Shown here: one piece after another, positions 6,820 through 29,703 of the stretch
Numbering within the stretch: the stretch's first letter is position 1
Layout: each line of letters begins with the position of its first letter
Assembly: GCA_016788295.1 (NCBI GenBank)
Contig: JAEUSY010000016.1
Coordinates: 1 to 64,000, forward strand
Reading direction: 5' to 3'
DNA: 64,000 nucleotides
From: Flavobacteriales bacterium
GTDB taxonomy: Bacteria; Bacteroidota; Bacteroidia; Flavobacteriales_F; PHOS-HE28
The notes under the pieces: generated by a model
Seen by the model: only the letters and a program-made list of their open reading frames with translations
What the model was told of the DNA's origin: nothing
Database searches by the model: none
Position numbers and translations under genes: made by a program

Positions 6820-7722
6820 TCAGCTTCCGCGCATGATCCCCTGGTACTGGCTGATGTGCCCTGGGTCGATGATCTGCAAGGTGTTGAAGATCTTGGACTT
6901 CTCCTGGGGCTCACCCATTTTGTAGATCTCCACCAGTTCGTTGTACTTGGCGTTGAAGAACACCTGCAGGTTGTAGCTCGAAGGCTTGGCCTGGTGCACG
7001 GTGCGCAGCTTCTCGATACCGGCAGCGATGGTACGGCGTGCTGCGGCCGCATCCTCGGTCATGGTGTCCATGCCTTCGCGGTGGTAGCTGTACATCAGTT
7101 CGCGCAGTGGGCGGAACACGGCCTGCAGCTGGTTGTCCAGCAACCAATAGCGGTTGGTCTGCTCCTCGAAGGCCTTCCAACCGGGCTCGCTGGTGTTCTG
7201 TGCGTTGTTCACCACCTGCTGGGCCATGGTGTAGTGCGGCGTACCTCCCAAGGGGGCGAACGAATCGCCATCCACGCCAAGGATGAAATAGGCGTAGAAA
7301 CCGAGGATGCTGGAGAGATTGTTCATGAACCGCTCCGGGAAGAACTCGATCTGGGTGTTCTCCAGGAAGTTGAACGACACTTGGTTGTCCACCAGGTCGA
7401 TGACCGGGCTGTTGTAATCGGTGCCGAACACAGGCCGGGCATAGATCACCTGCAACGAACCCTCGAAGCGGTCCGGTGCGGGCTGGCTGGTGATGGTGAG
7501 CAGGAGGTTGATCTCGATCCGCTCGCCGGGCGCATAGTTGGCGTTGGTGAAGCGGCGGTTCTGGTAGAACTCCTTGATGGCCAGCTCAAGGGACTGGAAC
7601 ACACGTGGTTGTGCCTGCGCCACCTGCGGGGCGATCACGCTCACCTGGCAATTGAACTCCTGTGCTTGCGCCGCAACAGCGACCAAGGTGGCGGCGAGCA
7701 GCAACTGGATCCTTCGCATCAT
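6820..7722 (-). CDS. porD: T9SS-associated protein PorD (DUF4835)
   Basis: The 300-residue exported protein has a signal peptide (MMRRIQLLLAATLVAVAAQA) and the DUF4835 body, with features such as FNFLENTQIEFFPE and LGVDGDSFAPLGG. This family is called PorD in Porphyromonas gingivalis, where it is needed for type IX secretion; its exact role is not settled. It overlaps coaBC by one base (TAATG), so it is translated from the same transcript. Its presence fits the many T9SS cargo proteins in this window. Confidence 0.88.
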   Translation of the reverse strand: MMRRIQLLLAATLVAVAAQAQEFNCQVSVIAPQVAQAQPRVFQSLELAIKEFYQNRRFTNANYAPGERIEINLLLTITSQPAPDRFEGSLQVIYARPVFGTDYNSPVIDLVDNQVSFNFLENTQIEFFPERFMNNLSSILGFYAYFILGVDGDSFAPLGGTPHYTMAQQVVNNAQNTSEPGWKAFEEQTNRYWLLDNQLQAVFRPLRELMYSYHREGMDTMTEDAAAARRTIAAGIEKLRTVHQAKPSSYNLQVFFNAKYNELVEIYKMGEPQEKSKIFNTLQIIDPGHISQYQGIMRGS

Positions 7723-8948
7723 TACAACAATGTTTCCAAGCGGTCCAAGATAGCACGGGCCACTTCCTGCTTGCTCATCAACGGCAATTCCGCGGGATCC
7801 GTGCCCGGGGCCAGCAAGGTCACCTTGTTGGTATCCACCCCGAAACCGGCACCGGCCTCGCGCAGGCTGTTCAGCACCAGCAGGTCAAGGTTCTTGCGCT
7901 GCAACTTGGCCGTGGCGTGCTCCAGTTCGTTGTTGGTCTCCAGTGCGAAGCCCACCACCCTCTGCCCCGGCTTGCGGGTGGCCGAGAGCGTGGCCAGGAT
8001 GTCCTCGGTGGGTTCCAGTTGAAGTTCCACCGGCCCCTTCCCTTTCTTCACTTTCTGGGCTGCTGCGTTCACCGGCCTGAAGTCGGCCACGGCGGCGCTC
8101 ATGATCAGGGCATCGCAGGCGGGTGCCAAGGTCTTGCAGGCCTTGGCCATTTCAGCGGCCGATATCACGTTGGTGCGGTTCACGCCCGGCCGATCGAGCT
8201 GAAGGGATACCGGCCCGGCCACCAGTTCCACGTGTGCGCCACGCAGGGCGGCCTCTTCGGCCAGGGCGAAGCCCATTTTGCCACTGGACCGGTTGCCGAT
8301 GTAGCGTACCGGGTCCATGGCCTCCTGCGTAGGGCCTGCGCTGATCAGGATGCGCTTGCCGCTGAGCTTGCTGGCACCGACCAGTCCGGCATGCACGGCG
8401 GCCAGGATATCAACAGGTTCGGTCATGCGCCCTTCGCCCACCAGTCCGCTGGCGAGCTCACCCTGCTCGGGTCCGATGGTGCGTACACCGCGCGAGCGCA
8501 GCAGGTCGAGGTTGGCCCGCGTGGAGGCATCGCGCCACATCTCCAGGTCCATGGCGGGTGCCACGAAAACCGGACAGGTGGCACTGAGGTAACAGGCCAC
8601 CAGCAGGTTGTCGCATTGGCCGTGGGCCAGTTTGGCCAGGGTGTTCGCCGTGGCGGGTGCCACCACCATCACATCGGCCCAGCGTGCCAGGTGCACATGG
8701 TCGTTCCAGCGCCCGCTGCCGTCCTGCACGAACAGGTCGGTGAGCACCGGGCGTTTGCTCAGCGTGGCCAGCGTGAGCGGCGTAACGAAGTCGTGCGCCG
8801 AGCGGGTCATCACCACCTGCACCTCGGCACCTGCCTTCACCAGTTCGCGCACCAGAAGGGCCGCCTTAAAAGCAGCGATGCCGCCCGAAACGCCGAGCAG
8901 CACCTTGCGGTTGAGAGAGTACGGGGAGGGAACGGGGGTACGTTCCAT
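7722..8948 (-). CDS. coaBC: Bifunctional phosphopantothenoylcysteine decarboxylase/phosphopantothenate-cysteine ligase
   Basis: Carries two consecutive steps of coenzyme A synthesis in the cytoplasm. Residues 1-190 form the flavin-dependent decarboxylase: GVSGGIAAFKAA, a catalytic His in WNDHVHLARWAD, APATANTLAKLA and a substrate motif APAMDLEMW. The C-terminal ligase has SAGPTQEAMDPVRYIGNRSS and a lysine-rich KVKKGKG loop. The 408 residues are normal for the fusion. It lies 9 bases after rpoZ and overlaps porD. Confidence 0.95.
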   Translation of the reverse strand: MERTPVPSPYSLNRKVLLGVSGGIAAFKAALLVRELVKAGAEVQVVMTRSAHDFVTPLTLATLSKRPVLTDLFVQDGSGRWNDHVHLARWADVMVVAPATANTLAKLAHGQCDNLLVACYLSATCPVFVAPAMDLEMWRDASTRANLDLLRSRGVRTIGPEQGELASGLVGEGRMTEPVDILAAVHAGLVGASKLSGKRILISAGPTQEAMDPVRYIGNRSSGKMGFALAEEAALRGAHVELVAGPVSLQLDRPGVNRTNVISAAEMAKACKTLAPACDALIMSAAVADFRPVNAAAQKVKKGKGPVELQLEPTEDILATLSATRKPGQRVVGFALETNNELEHATAKLQRKNLDLLVLNSLREAGAGFGVDTNKVTLLAPGTDPAELPLMSKQEVARAILDRLETLL

Positions 8949-15226: not shown

Positions 15227-16099
15227 ATGGACCGCCGCAAAGCCCTTCAACTCATGAGCATCGCCCCACTGGGAGCCGCATTCGGCCTGCGCGAACTGGG
15301 CCGTGCGGTGGCCGACCTGCCTTCCACCCCGCCCCTGCCGGTGCTCTTCCTGGGCCACGGCAGTCCCATGAACGCCATCGAGGACAACGAGTTCTCCCGC
15401 GGCTGGCAGGGCATCGGCAAAGACCTCCCCCGCCCCCACGCCATCCTGTGCATCAGCGCGCACTGGGAGACCCGCGGCACTTTCGTCACGGGCATGGAGA
15501 AGCCGCGCACCATCCACGACTTCGGCGGTTTCCCGCAGGCCCTGTTCGATGTGCAGTACCCCGCGCCCGGGAGCCCGACGCTGGCCGAACGGACGCAGCA
15601 GGCCGTCACCAGCACCCACATCGGCATCGACCACCAGTGGGGCCTGGACCATGGTGCGTGGAGCGTGATCATCCACCTCTTCCCGAAGGCCGATGTGCCC
15701 GTGGTGCAACTGAGCCTGGACCGCAGCCTGTCGCCGCAGCAACACTACGAGCTGGCGCGCGAGCTCGCCGTCCTGCGCCGCAAGGGCGTGCTCATCATCG
15801 GCAGCGGCAACATGGTGCACAACCTGGGCGTGATCGACTGGCGCAACCCCGAGGGCGGCTACGACTGGGCCATCGAGGCCAACAGCCGGATGAAGGAGCT
15901 GATCATGAACGAGGGCCACGCGCAACTGGCCGACTACACCCGGCAGGGCAAGGCCTTCCAACTGAGCATTCCCACGCCCGAACACTACCTGCCCCTGCTC
16001 TACGTGCTGGGCCTCAAGGACCGCAAAGAGCCCGTGTGCCTCTTCAACGACCGCACCGTGATGGGCAGCATCGCCATGACCAGCGTGAAGGTCGGTTAG
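15227..16099 (+). CDS. ygiD: 4,5-DOPA dioxygenase extradiol-like protein
   Basis: LigB-fold extradiol dioxygenase of 290 residues. Metal-ligand candidates are His in LFLGHGSPMNAI, His in CISAHWETRG and the late IIGSGNMVHNLG. E. coli YgiD opens the aromatic ring of L-DOPA in vitro, but its physiological substrate is unclear. The N-terminus, MDRRKALQLMSIAPLGAAF, has a twin-arginine followed by a hydrophobic stretch, so Tat export is possible. It follows the KefC gene after 72 bases and precedes a flavin reductase, suggesting a broader redox/electrophile neighbourhood. Confidence 0.87.
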   Translation: MDRRKALQLMSIAPLGAAFGLRELGRAVADLPSTPPLPVLFLGHGSPMNAIEDNEFSRGWQGIGKDLPRPHAILCISAHWETRGTFVTGMEKPRTIHDFGGFPQALFDVQYPAPGSPTLAERTQQAVTSTHIGIDHQWGLDHGAWSVIIHLFPKADVPVVQLSLDRSLSPQQHYELARELAVLRRKGVLIIGSGNMVHNLGVIDWRNPEGGYDWAIEANSRMKELIMNEGHAQLADYTRQGKAFQLSIPTPEHYLPLLYVLGLKDRKEPVCLFNDRTVMGSIAMTSVKVG

Positions 16100-16129
16100 G
16101 CCCGCACGCCACTTGAACACACCGAACCC

Positions 16130-16690
16130 ATGTCCCACATCGTCATCCTCTCCGCCAGCGTCCGCGACGGCCGCATGAGCCACCACGTAGCGCTGCACCT
16201 GCACCGCCACATCACCAGCAGCCCCGCCCATACTGCGGACCTGATCGACCTGGCCCAGCTGGACTTCCCGCTCTTCCACGAACGGCTCAAGTTCATGACC
16301 GCACCGCCGCCGGAGGTGGTGGCCTTTGCCGAACGCATCCGCAAGGCCGAGGGCGTCATCATCGTTTCGCCGGAATACAACGCCAGCTTCCCGGCGAGCC
16401 TGAAGAACGTGATCGACCTGCTCACCGAGGAGTGGAAGCGCAAGCCCGTGGCCCTGGTACCCGTGAGCGGCGGGGCCTTTGGTGGCGCGCAGGTCACCCT
16501 GCAACTGCTGGCCACGCTGTGGAAGATCCGGGCCTGGGTGATGACCGGCGCCATGCAGGTGCCCACGGTGAAGAACGCCTTCGATGAGCAGGGCGTGGCC
16601 GTGGAGGCCGAGGCCTGGGCCAAGCGCTGCGATGCCCTGCTGGCCGAGCTGGAGTGGGCCATGGAGGCCACCCGGCGGATGCAGGGGTGA
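16130..16690 (+). CDS. NADPH-dependent FMN reductase family protein
   Basis: The 186-residue flavodoxin-like reductase has an N-terminal SHIVILSASVRDGRMS FMN loop and a central VIIVSPEYNASFPASLKNVID. These are the classic signatures of the NADPH:FMN reductase/azoreductase family. The last 20 or so bases are duplicated exactly 939 bases downstream, and a rearranged second copy of its 3' region follows the stop. The gene end has therefore been a recombination point. The electron acceptor is unknown. Confidence 0.88.
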   Translation: MSHIVILSASVRDGRMSHHVALHLHRHITSSPAHTADLIDLAQLDFPLFHERLKFMTAPPPEVVAFAERIRKAEGVIIVSPEYNASFPASLKNVIDLLTEEWKRKPVALVPVSGGAFGGAQVTLQLLATLWKIRAWVMTGAMQVPTVKNAFDEQGVAVEAEAWAKRCDALLAELEWAMEATRRMQG

Positions 16691-16693
16691 GCG
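16668..16693 (+). repeat. Left copy of 26-bp direct repeat bounding an AT-rich island
   Basis: A 26-base sequence beginning CCACCCGGCGGATGCAGGGG covers the last codons and stop of the flavin reductase gene and three further bases. It occurs again without mismatch at 17607-17632. The flanking bases differ on both sides. Confidence 0.9.
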
Positions 16694-16743
16694 GGGCCAT
16701 GCAGGTCGGCCTGGGCCAAGCGCCGTGATGCGTGCTGAAGCTG
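16694..16743 (+). pseudogene. Collapsed second copy of flavin-reductase 3' region
   Basis: After the stop codon, GCCATGCAGGT and then GGCCTGGGCCAAGCGC, CGTGATGC and GCTGGA follow in the same order as in the reductase gene (at about 16550 and 16610-16650). The bases between are deleted and there are several substitutions. This looks like the remnant of a tandem paralogue. It has no coding capacity of its own. Confidence 0.55.
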
Positions 16744-16767
16744 GATGTCCCGTTATCTTGGCGGGAG

Positions 16768-16863
16768 ATGAGCGCAATAGGGTGCTTTGGGATTGCGGCT
16801 TTGGGTGCAGGCCTGTCTGCCTCAGCAGGGACTCCTGCGGAAGACCCTGCTGCTGGGCACTAG
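16768..16863 (+). CDS. Possible 31-residue signal-peptide-like ORF
   Basis: ATG at 16768 is preceded by a GGGAG ribosome-binding-like sequence and, 8 bases upstream, by TATCTTGG, close to a -7 box. The translation is hydrophobic and Ala/Gly-rich (SAIGCFGIAALGAGLSASAG), then PAEDPAAGH and a stop. It could be the 5' stub of a secreted protein whose remainder was lost when the island formed, or chance. It ends 6 bases before the next gene. Confidence 0.25.
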   Translation: MSAIGCFGIAALGAGLSASAGTPAEDPAAGH

Positions 16864-16869
16864 TTTCAA

Positions 16870-17529
16870 ATGAACAGACGAATGAACGAAGCATGGTACT
16901 CCTTAAGTCCTGATCTTTCTGGTCCATGGCACTTTCCATTCATCCATGAACCAAAATCCACTAAAGTCGATTCAGATCAGCTGCCTTTTACGCTTCCCAG
17001 GCATGCGTTTATGCGATTGAATGCAGATCCAAATATCCATTCCCTCGTATTGCCCAATTGCGCTATTCTTCCCGACGTGCTAAGTCTTGCATACATACAG
17101 TTATCTCATGGAATGCTGTGCACACACAAAGCAGCCATGATACTTGACGGTATGAGGTTATCGTTTCCTGTAGAAATATATTCCTGGAAAACTGGACGTA
17201 ATGATGAGCCAACACTATTCTATTATCACTATTGCAAATCAAGCTTTTTACACTTAAACAGTATTGATTCACAGTTTACAGCATTCAATACCTTTTTCAG
17301 AACGAGACGTTCTCTGACCACCGTCGAAGCCGAAACAGGTCGATTCGAAATGGGTGAAATACTCTTAGCGGAGCATCTTGTTTTCAATGATTGCTCTTTT
17401 GACCTATACAGCTTTGGCATACAGAATGCCCCATTGATTGCATCGCAGCGATTAGTTGCAGCTTTCAATAAAGCAGGTATAACAGGGGTTGTGCCGGTAG
17501 AGACAGGCATTGTAGAGTGCCCGAGCTAG
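16870..17529 (+). CDS. AT-rich orphan gene, Imm11/Imm43-like immunity protein candidate
   Basis: The 219-residue soluble protein has no signal peptide or membrane segment. Base composition is obviously lower in GC than its neighbours (many TTT, ATT, AAA codons), which points to horizontal transfer. Its closing stretch NAPLIASQRLVAAFNKAGIT, followed by GV, resembles the end of polymorphic-toxin immunity families such as Imm11/DUF1629 and Imm43 (pattern: hydrophobic-S-xx-L-xx-A-hydrophobic-xx-A-G-I-T-G). This is a by-eye match only. No toxin gene is adjacent. The gene lies inside a segment bounded by perfect direct repeats. A second Met four codons on (16882) is an alternative start. Confidence 0.6.
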   Translation: MNRRMNEAWYSLSPDLSGPWHFPFIHEPKSTKVDSDQLPFTLPRHAFMRLNADPNIHSLVLPNCAILPDVLSLAYIQLSHGMLCTHKAAMILDGMRLSFPVEIYSWKTGRNDEPTLFYYHYCKSSFLHLNSIDSQFTAFNTFFRTRRSLTTVEAETGRFEMGEILLAEHLVFNDCSFDLYSFGIQNAPLIASQRLVAAFNKAGITGVVPVETGIVECPS

Positions 17530-17606
17530 AGCCAGTGTTCCCCTCCCTCGCTGCCGCTTATCTGTGATGAACGGCCTTCCCCCCTCCACCAGCACCACGT
17601 GTAGCT

Positions 17607-17632
17607 CCACCCGGCGGATGCAGGGGTGAGCG
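17607..17632 (+). repeat. Right copy of 26-bp direct repeat
   Basis: Identical to 16668-16693, the 3' end of the flavin reductase gene, but here outside any gene and about 80 bases after the immunity-like gene. The GC-rich native composition resumes around this point. Confidence 0.9.
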
Positions 17633-17728
17633 AGGATGGTGGGCCACTAAGCACGTACTCCTGTCTACCGCCCTTTCTTTGTGCATCGGAGGTACTACCC
17701 TCGCCCTCCTCACGTTCCTCTCCACAAC

Positions 17729-18943
17729 ATGCACCGCCTGCTCCGCTGGTCGCCCCTGCTCGTTCTCCCGGTGATCGCGCTGGGCTTCTTCCAGACCCCG
17801 GCAAAGGACCCTGTGGTAATACCCTCGACCTTCCGCTGGAAGAACAACTATTGGCTGGAAAGCGGCGAGCAGCAGGCCATTACGCGCAACGGCATCCAGC
17901 GCGTATACCACAAGCTGCTGGACATCGACTGGAACCCGGCCAACGGCGCGCATCCGGTGTCGGTGGTGCGCATCCCCTACCAATGGCGCAGTTACAATGA
18001 TCACGATGGGTACTGGTCCGACAAGGTGGAGCTGGTGCCGTGCATCTACATCACGAACAACACCTTCTTGCGGATCGGCGACAAGGAGGTGGACCAACTG
18101 GCCCGCAACCTGCTGCGCAAACTGCGCCTGGAGCTACCGGACAAGGTGCACGGCGTGCTGCTGGACTGCGACTGGACCGCGAAGACCAAGGACCGCTTCT
18201 TCCGCCTGACGCGGATCATGAACGACAGCCTGGACGTGCCGCTATCGGCCACCATCCGCCTTCATCAGTACGCAAATCCGAAGGGTACCGGGGTGCCACC
18301 CGCCGACCGTGGCATGCTGATGCCTTACAACGTGGGCCAGATCACCGCACCGGGCGATGGCAATTCCATCTTCGACCTCTCTGTCGCGGAGCCCTACTTC
18401 ACGAGTACCAAGCCCTATCCCCTGCCGCTGGACATCGGTCTGCCCGCCTTTGCGTGGGGCGTGCAGTTCCGCAACGGGGCCTTCGTGGGTGTGCTACAGG
18501 ACCAGCAGGTGCAGGACGCGCTTTCCCTGGGCCTGTTGAGCGGCGAAGCCAACGGCACCCTGCAGGTGACCCAGGAGAACAACGAGCACATGCCCGAGCT
18601 GCACTTGGGCGATGTGGTGCGCGTGGAACGCATGACGCCCGAGGTGATCGCCCAAGTGGCCCAACTGGCGCGAACTGCGGTGAACAGCGATACCCTGGCC
18701 GTGGCCTACTTCGAACTGGGCACCGGCACCTTCCAGAAGATGACCAAGGCAGAAGTGAATGCAGGTTTCCAACTCTTCGGTCCGCTGCGGAAAGGCAGCT
18801 ATTCCTTCGACGATGAGGGCGATGGAATTGCCCATCCGGTGCGGACGGACACAGCAGCAGCCGTTCCAGCGAACAGTGCCCTCTGGGAACCTGTGGACAC
18901 CGCCGTGCCCGTGATCGAACCCCACCACATCAAGCGTCCATGA
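17729..18943 (+). CDS. Exported protein of unknown function, TIM-barrel-like
   Basis: The 404 residues begin with a signal-like segment (MHRLLRWSPLLVLPVIALGF). I recognise no catalytic domain. The middle (VHGVLLDCDWTAKTKDRFF, then LSATIRLHQYANPKGTGVPP and MLMPYNVGQI) alternates strands and helices like a glycosidase-type barrel, with an Asp-Cys-Asp at a strand end. Similar unannotated proteins occur in Bacteroidota (memory only). The stop overlaps the next gene's start (ATGA), so the two are coupled. An upstream in-frame ATG at 17681 would place Arg/Pro-rich residues before the signal; the start at 17729 was preferred. Confidence 0.7.
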   Translation: MHRLLRWSPLLVLPVIALGFFQTPAKDPVVIPSTFRWKNNYWLESGEQQAITRNGIQRVYHKLLDIDWNPANGAHPVSVVRIPYQWRSYNDHDGYWSDKVELVPCIYITNNTFLRIGDKEVDQLARNLLRKLRLELPDKVHGVLLDCDWTAKTKDRFFRLTRIMNDSLDVPLSATIRLHQYANPKGTGVPPADRGMLMPYNVGQITAPGDGNSIFDLSVAEPYFTSTKPYPLPLDIGLPAFAWGVQFRNGAFVGVLQDQQVQDALSLGLLSGEANGTLQVTQENNEHMPELHLGDVVRVERMTPEVIAQVAQLARTAVNSDTLAVAYFELGTGTFQKMTKAEVNAGFQLFGPLRKGSYSFDDEGDGIAHPVRTDTAAAVPANSALWEPVDTAVPVIEPHHIKRP

Positions 18944-28259: not shown

Positions 28260-28663
28260 AGGATGGCCAGCCGGTAGCCATCGGCCCCCAGGCCCATAAT
28301 GGAACCTTTGCACACACTGCCGGTCAATGAGACATGCCGGAACGGTTCCCGCGCCAGCAGGTTGGTGATGTGCACCTCCACCACCGGCACCTTGATGGCC
28401 GCAATGGCATCGCGCACCGCCACCGAGGTGTGCGTGTAGCCACCAGCGTTCAGCACCACGCCATCGTACTGCCCTTCGGCCTGTTGCAAGGCCTCCACCA
28501 GTTCACCTTCGAGGTTGCTCTGCAGATGGTGGAGTTCCACTTCTGGTATGGCCTGCCGCCAATCCTCCAGGTGCTCCTCCATGGTGTGTTCGCCGTACAG
28601 AGCCCGTTCCCGCGTGCCCAAAAGGTTCAGGTTCGGACCGTTGAGAATGAGGATGCGTGGCAT
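28214..28663 (-). CDS. aroQ: 3-dehydroquinate dehydratase, type II
   Basis: Third step of the shikimate pathway, dehydrating 3-dehydroquinate in the cytoplasm. The 149 residues are full length for the dodecameric type II enzyme. Signatures are ILNGPNLNLLGTRERALYG (catalytic Tyr in LYG, Arg in the flexible loop), LQSNLEGELV, NAGGYTHTSVAVRDA and VEVHITN with the catalytic His. The upstream extension to 28771 lacks conservation; the chosen start gives the typical MPRILILNGPN. Confidence 0.96.
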   Translation of the reverse strand: MPRILILNGPNLNLLGTRERALYGEHTMEEHLEDWRQAIPEVELHHLQSNLEGELVEALQQAEGQYDGVVLNAGGYTHTSVAVRDAIAAIKVPVVEVHITNLLAREPFRHVSLTGSVCKGSIMGLGADGYRLAILHLLALAGSKASESN

Positions 28664-28791
28664 GGTTGGTAGGGATGGGAATGCGAAGGTCGGAACAATG
28701 CACCGCCCGTTATACCGATTCACGATCCACCGTGCAGAACAAGCGCCAGCAGCGGCCTGTTGGCGCGGCACCGGTGGGCAACCTTCGTGGC

Positions 28792-29703
28792 ATGACCTGG
28801 AACGCGGCCCTGGCAGACCTGCGCATACACCTGAAGCTGGAGCGCTCGCTGAGCCCGCGTTCCGTGGAGGCGTACCTGCGCGATCTCAGCAAGCTGCAGG
28901 CCTATGCCGAAGGGCTCACCCCCCCCCTGGGCCCGGTGGACCTGGGACTTGAGGACCTGCAGGCCTTTGTGACGGCTACGGCGAAACAAGGCCTCGCCCC
29001 CACCAGCCAGGCACGGTTGCTCAGTGCCGTACGAGGCTTTTACCGCCACCTGCTGCGTGAGAAAGTGGTGCGCGAAGACCCGAGCGAACTGATCGAAAGC
29101 CCGCGCACCGGCCGCTACCTGCCCACTTTCCTTACCGTGGAAGAGATCGACAACATGGTGCGCGCCATCGACATGAGCAAGCCCATGGCCCACCGCGACC
29201 GCGCCATGATCGAAACGCTGTACGGTTGCGGATTGCGGGTGAGCGAGCTATGCTCCCTGCGGCGCAGTTGGCTGCATTTCTCAGAAGGCTATATCCGCGT
29301 GGTGGGCAAGGGCGATAAGGAACGCCTGGTACCCATCGGCCCCGAGGCCATGCGGCAGATGGACCGTTACATGAGCGACGAACGTGTGCATCTACCCTTG
29401 AGACAGAAGGCCGAGGACATCGTGTTCCTTAATCAGCGCGGTGGACCATTGTCGCGCGTCAGTGTGTTCAACCTGGTGAAGGAACTGGCCGTGCGCGCAG
29501 GCATCCACAAGACCATCAGTCCGCACACCTTCAGGCATTCGTTCGCCACGCACCTGGTGGAGGGCGGCGCCGATCTGCGTGCAGTGCAGGAAATGCTCGG
29601 TCACGCCAGCATCACCACCACCGAGATCTACACGCATTTGGACCGCGAGTACCTGCGGAGCAATATCCTACAGTTCCATCCGCGGGCAAAGGCCAGGGCC
29701 TGA
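28792..29703 (+). CDS. xerD: Tyrosine recombinase XerD-like
   Basis: Site-specific recombinase of the chromosome-dimer resolution system. The 303 residues have a SAM-like N-terminal core-binding domain (about 1-90). The catalytic domain has Arg149 (CGLRVSEL), a Lys in GKGDKERLVP, His245-xx-Arg248 (SPHTFRHSF), His271 (LGHASITTTEIY) and the nucleophile Tyr280. The set is complete. The setting next to aroQ on the opposite strand is housekeeping-like, with no integron or phage context, so XerD rather than a mobile integrase. Confidence 0.92.
   Translation: MTWNAALADLRIHLKLERSLSPRSVEAYLRDLSKLQAYAEGLTPPLGPVDLGLEDLQAFVTATAKQGLAPTSQARLLSAVRGFYRHLLREKVVREDPSELIESPRTGRYLPTFLTVEEIDNMVRAIDMSKPMAHRDRAMIETLYGCGLRVSELCSLRRSWLHFSEGYIRVVGKGDKERLVPIGPEAMRQMDRYMSDERVHLPLRQKAEDIVFLNQRGGPLSRVSVFNLVKELAVRAGIHKTISPHTFRHSFATHLVEGGADLRAVQEMLGHASITTTEIYTHLDREYLRSNILQFHPRAKARA

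Follow-up and report, generated by a model that had tools for sequence, protein, structure and literature searches.

We analyzed a stretch of 64,000 nucleotides (here, the window) from a 3.78-Mb Flavobacteriales genome, G000, the window contig appearing as C10 in the site labels used below. At the locus of interest, an intact gene for a flavin reductase is followed by a single AT-rich orphan gene, here called the cargo gene, and then by a conserved gene that closes the right flank, the cargo gene lying between two repeat blocks which we refer to as the left block (LB) and the right block (RB) (Table 1). The 219 codons of the cargo gene have a GC content of 0.429 and a GC3 of 0.397, compared to GC3 values of 0.79 to 0.92 in the seven other window genes measured, and elsewhere in the 64-kb window no 660-bp stretch has a GC content below 0.518. 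The compositional difference reported in the initial annotation was thus confirmed by calculation. However, the low-GC segment of 939 bp that it described between two direct repeats is AT-rich over only ∼680 bp, since both margins are GC-rich.

Table 1. Features of the cargo locus (window positions)
Feature	Position	Strand	Remarks
NADPH-dependent FMN (flavin) reductase gene, intact	16130..16690	+	Pfam FMN_red, 2e-33; 97% amino acid identity to G009
26-bp direct repeat, copy 1 (last codons and stop of the FMN reductase gene)	16668..16693	+	
Degenerate second copy of the FMN reductase gene 3′ end, left half (gene positions 467-524)	16694..16745	+	Local alignment
LB, dispersed repeat of ∼110 bp	16746..16862	+	Covariance-model match, 97.7 bits; 93% identical in G009, same site
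Swapped segment	16863..17540	+	Without similarity (DNA or protein) to its G009 counterpart, L054 745-1166
Cargo gene, 219 aa, AT-rich orphan	16870..17529	+	Predicted orphan immunity protein (putative)
RB, degenerate palindromic repeat CTCGCTGCCGCTTATCTGTGATGA	17541..17593	+	Present two to three times in the G009 counterpart
Broken second gene-end copy, right half (gene positions 529-567)	17594..17635	+	Includes 26-bp repeat copy 2, 17607-17632
Conserved downstream gene, closing the right flank	17681..18943	+	Same place in G009

A C-terminal resemblance of the 219-aa protein to polymorphic-toxin immunity proteins had been suggested but found no support in the searches. Pfam gave no match at an E value of ≤10 for the whole protein, its N-terminal part, or its C-terminal part, the Imm11/DUF1629 model included, and nothing significant was found in NCBIfam, PHROGs, PADLOC, or the PDB sequences. 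No relatives were detected in 58 close genomes, plasmids, and viral contigs, while the matches obtained in 395 genomes of the phylum (E values of 0.002 to 0.008) were at chance level for that number of genomes, the longest of them lying antisense to other open reading frames (ORFs). Single-sequence structure prediction returned a mean pLDDT of 31, of no use for a fold search, and there was no Rfam match over window positions 16000 to 18000.

The perfect 26-bp direct repeat noted at the ends of the segment, which includes the end of the reductase gene, is real. Positions 16668 to 16696 and 17607 to 17635 agree in 28 of 29 bases, the first 26 being identical, at a spacing of 939, and the 21-base core of the repeat has two occurrences in the whole 3.78-Mb genome (allowing ≤3 mismatches), both of them at the window site. 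Its interpretation as the signature of an insertion, in contrast, did not hold. The stretch between the intact reductase gene and LB aligns with the 3′ end of that gene with a score of 29.5, against 18.5 for the best of 300 shuffles, and, read together with the remnant to the right of RB, it gives a second, collinear gene-end copy that the insert interrupts. As judged from these alignments, one copy of the 26-bp repeat belongs to the intact gene end and the other to the right half of the broken duplicate. The closest relative, G009, also has both halves of the broken copy, the right one imperfect, and therefore the repeat predates the cargo now in place and did not result from its insertion. 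It would be an older by-product rather than a recombination site. Its reading as an att site or a target-site duplication was rejected, the repeat being part of an older, split tandem copy of the gene end.

G009, the closest relative available, carries the locus on contig CAUJFM010000392.1 (sequence L054), its FMN reductase gene being 96% identical to that of G000 at the nucleotide level. It was the only one of the relatives searched in which the window gene order was recovered; because this order exists there only in G000 and G009, the search for an empty site with a single repeat copy yielded none at the window locus. Window positions 16130 to 16862 align with L054 positions 9 to 744 (94.7% identity), at which point the common block stops, to resume at window position 17541 (through 17800, aligned with L054 positions 1167 to 1438 at 85.7%). 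The segment in between runs from 7 bases ahead of the cargo start codon to 11 bases past the stop codon. At the same site, between the same LB and RB, G009 has a cargo that is also AT-rich and unrelated to that of the window. We infer from this one pair of sequences that the cargo was swapped at the window site, the comparison involving a single pair because only G009 shares the exact locus. Among the records consulted, CAMCAZ010000068.1 (L055), titled Chryseobacterium gleum, groups by its reductase and GC content with the high-GC genus of the window and is probably mislabeled.

The G009 cargo consists of a short frame with a toxin-tail-like peptide, VDFHGNELWPNGPKNKNK, whose stop codon overlaps (ATGA) the start of a 72-aa ORF. 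Structure prediction for the 72-aa protein was uninformative (pLDDT of 63, two helices). In the 395 phylum genomes it has one clear relative (48% identity, E value of 3.3e-18), in the distant genome G089, where the corresponding gene lies directly behind a 57-residue Rhs-core fragment (TIGR03696, 22 bits, which is below the family cutoff of 32.5) and downstream of a gene with an Rhs core (65.5 bits) and a GH-E nuclease domain, an ankyrin-repeat gene being present there too. An immunity-like gene behind an Rhs fragment is the usual picture for displaced toxin-immunity modules. Since the G089 neighborhood is typical of such modules, we take the G009 cargo to be an orphan Rhs immunity gene, a prediction that draws on gene context. 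The tiny mobile immunity-gene cassette envisaged in the initial annotation hence survives in part: there is a small exchangeable slot, occupied in G009 by another, orphan Rhs-type cargo, but its boundaries are LB and RB and not the 26-bp repeat. Because of its location, size, and composition, we likewise infer that the 219-aa protein of the window is an immunity protein, which would neutralize a toxin delivered by competitors and be kept only while that toxin is around.

LB has a TTATCTTGGCGGGA core and, at its end, a hairpin that reads GCAGGGACTCC..GGAAGACCCTGC in the window copy and GCAGGGTCTCC..GGAAGACCCTGC in the alignment of copies. Eight copies are present in G000: the window copy (C10), two on C15, one on C29, two on C30, plus weaker copies on C43 and C52. 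Two strong copies and a decayed one (C30a) occur in G009, and G025 has two, 495 bp apart, which belong to a 494-bp tandem duplication with 100% identity. At all six strong G000 copies, AT-rich DNA lies on the right (hairpin) side: the 300 bp to the right of LB have a GC content of 0.43 to 0.52 and the left side one of 0.62 to 0.70, against a background, taken from the 64 kb of the window only, in which 1% of the 300-bp stretches fall below 0.52. At most sites the cargo starts within a few to ∼60 bases of the LB end, in either orientation; the C43 copy has no clearly AT-rich neighbor. The weak matches obtained elsewhere in the genus mostly cover the hairpin alone, which many of its genomes carry next to genes and without cargo. 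At the Rhs loci themselves LB was not found, except for a hairpin-like piece in an array of Rhs modules in G025.

Two candidate roles for LB were discarded. That of a dedicated cargo promoter was rejected as a general role, as the cargo is oriented toward LB at two sites, and that of an integron attC was rejected as the R′/R″ core boxes (RYYYAAC/GTTRRRY) were not seen in the LB alignment. Two further observations concern the surroundings of individual copies. Next to the weak LB on C43 of G000 (L160, ∼7640 to 7860) there is a pair of 90-bp repeats, 80% alike and with GCACATGCCCGGCRGAGGAACAGGCCGAACGGT, which represents another dispersed repeat family. In G025, the LB-bearing duplication (C1:3309173-3309775; L162/L241) adjoins an IS-type transposase-like ORF and a low-GC ORF of 231 aa.

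The RB motif, searched as ATCNGCGNNAGCGRGG plus its complement, has five exact copies in the 3.78 Mb of G000, four of them within 1 kb of LB on C15 or C30. There are seven copies in G009, two of them at the counterpart of the window site and one beside an Rhs orphan, and 11 in G025, of which four fall within the array of Rhs orphan modules and one at the LB site; a control with the reversed pattern gave 0 occurrences. The RB pattern was drawn in part from loci that were later counted, the copies in the Rhs array being the independent part of the evidence. That array (G025 C1:164000-180000, L213) contains three Rhs-core modules that are interspersed with genes of lower GC content and separated by many RB-type palindromes.

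The cargo at LB sites is mixed and comprises not only immunity genes. It includes small ORFans, an OmpA-like protein (weak match), a DUF3592 protein, a PKD/FISUMP protein, a SIR2-like protein, and an MmeI restriction-modification protein. At C15a (C136 in G009) and C30a (C391 in G009), LB is present in both G000 and G009 and the cargo differs; at C30a, both LB and cargo are absent from G016 and G025. The C15b position corresponds to a 304-bp gap in G016 and to other content in G009, in both cases lacking LB; at C29, the island of G009 is a different one and lacks LB, and G016 and G025 have no island. LB is therefore not always kept, as C29 and C15b in G009 illustrate. In G000, C29 (L135, 5167 to 11523) has LB followed by a PKD/FISUMP surface gene, behind it a SIR2-like gene (PADLOC Aga_SIR2, 2.9e-7), and an MmeI-type restriction-modification gene, all directed toward LB, and on its gene content this locus would be a defense-island hotspot. 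Behind the decayed LB of G009 C391 (L187, 1254 to 5045) lies an ORF of 1263 aa without Pfam or PADLOC match, possibly an undescribed defense protein.

Taken as a whole, we lean, with restrained confidence, toward a reading of the window site as a single-gene cargo slot framed by repeats and swapped by RecA-type recombination, with a cargo consisting partly of orphan immunity or defense genes. Cargo modules, some of them orphan immunity or defense genes shed by Rhs-type polymorphic toxin loci, would arrive as foreign DNA by lateral transfer and would displace the resident cargo through homologous recombination of the RecA type, acting on the repeats or on flanks that the two DNAs have in common. 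Homologous recombination in shared repeats or flanks is the simplest reading of the cargo exchange, in which LB may take part. As the initial annotation had stated for integrases, no recombinase is encoded at the window site, the nearest tyrosine recombinase being XerD, 12 kb away. The latter (XerD type, 28657 to 29703) adjoins aroQ and is an ordinary chromosomal gene that forms no part of the finding.

Distinctly less probable, although to be taken seriously, is that LB and RB are ordinary intergenic repeats, i.e., leader or terminator hairpins in places where foreign AT-rich DNA is tolerated, and that illegitimate insertions and deletions, each independent of the others, changed the cargo with no part played by the repeats. 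The frequent occurrence in the genus of the LB hairpin by itself, beside genes and without cargo, would be expected of such repeats, as would the lack of LB at C29 and C15b in G009 and the lack of a linked enzyme. Independent events, however, would not readily account for the one-sided position of the AT-rich cargo at all six strong LB copies, nor for a cargo that at most sites begins a few to ∼60 bases past the LB end in any orientation, nor for a swap that at the window site begins exactly where LB ends.

We regard as improbable that a site-specific recombinase or single-strand transposase acting in trans reads the LB hairpin and the RB palindromes and moves the cargo in the manner of cassettes, as an integron integrase does. 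A dedicated trans-acting enzyme is possible, and the sharp, recurrent left boundary just beyond the hairpin and the one-gene, cassette-like size of the cargo are what it would produce. However, although Phage_integrase matches identify five tyrosine recombinases in G000, XerD, at its distance of 12 kb, is the only one on an LB contig, and integron-type core boxes are missing from the LB alignment. The tandem LB copies in G025, suggestive at first sight of cassette-like behavior, form part of a perfectly identical duplication. A shade less probable again is the more far-reaching version according to which LB and RB are the ends of an undescribed single-gene cassette system of this high-GC Flavobacteriales lineage, installing and replacing orphan immunity and defense genes at scattered slots and moved in trans by an enzyme that reads the LB hairpin. 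Finally, foreign DNA beside a gene end and bracketed by direct repeats recalls an integrative element that inserted at the gene 3′ end, restored it, and left the 26-bp repeats as att sites, a scenario that we consider very improbable given that the remnants form a collinear second gene-end copy split by the insert, that this layout recurs in G009 around a different cargo, the right copy there being imperfect, and that the site has no integrase.

The usual setting in which orphan immunity genes are studied is an array or a position behind their parent toxin gene. Under the favored reading of a repeat-framed slot swapped by homologous recombination, the window site, a single slot with dispersed repeats and no recombinase whose cargo differs between two related species, is a simple system in which to follow the gain and loss of antidotes. 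LB and RB also provide a sequence handle for finding more defense genes in an environmental lineage about which little is known. Should the repeats alone suffice for exchange, a dedicated enzyme would be unneeded to keep an immunity repertoire current.

Several known systems invite comparison. Recombination yielding orphan immunity genes has been described for T6SS loci (PMC8546570). With orphan Rhs/CDI modules, the slot shares the toxin-tail-like peptide overlapping an immunity-like gene in the G009 cargo, the relative of which lies behind an orphan Rhs-core fragment; the slot module, in contrast, has no Rhs gene next to it and stands by itself, enclosed by LB and RB, at a distant site. Integron cassettes resemble it in their one-gene cargo, sharp constant left boundary, and variable contents, but the slot lacks an array and attC core boxes, and no integrase is encoded there. 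Polyimmunity loci are tandem arrays of immunity genes, sometimes beside XerC/D and usually one per genome (PMC3482391); they likewise hold immunity genes without their toxins and are highly variable between relatives, yet as tandem arrays they differ from the single-gene slot described here. The defining features of rAID systems are a tyrosine recombinase, short orphan immunity genes arrayed in a common orientation, and conserved motifs in the intergenic regions (PMC12247911). The likeness to these extends to short, low-GC genes of the immunity type in Bacteroidota, conserved intergenic motifs, and a cargo that varies between relatives. As regards the motifs, it consists in the recurrence of LB and RB at several cargo sites. 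The window site differs from rAID in having no tyrosine recombinase and in that LB and RB enclose a single cargo gene rather than an array of genes in the same orientation, the LB sites being scattered over the chromosome. Although it falls short of rAID in the recombinase and the array, the slot resembles rAID and polyimmunity systems in its type of cargo and in the idea of a recurrent motif.
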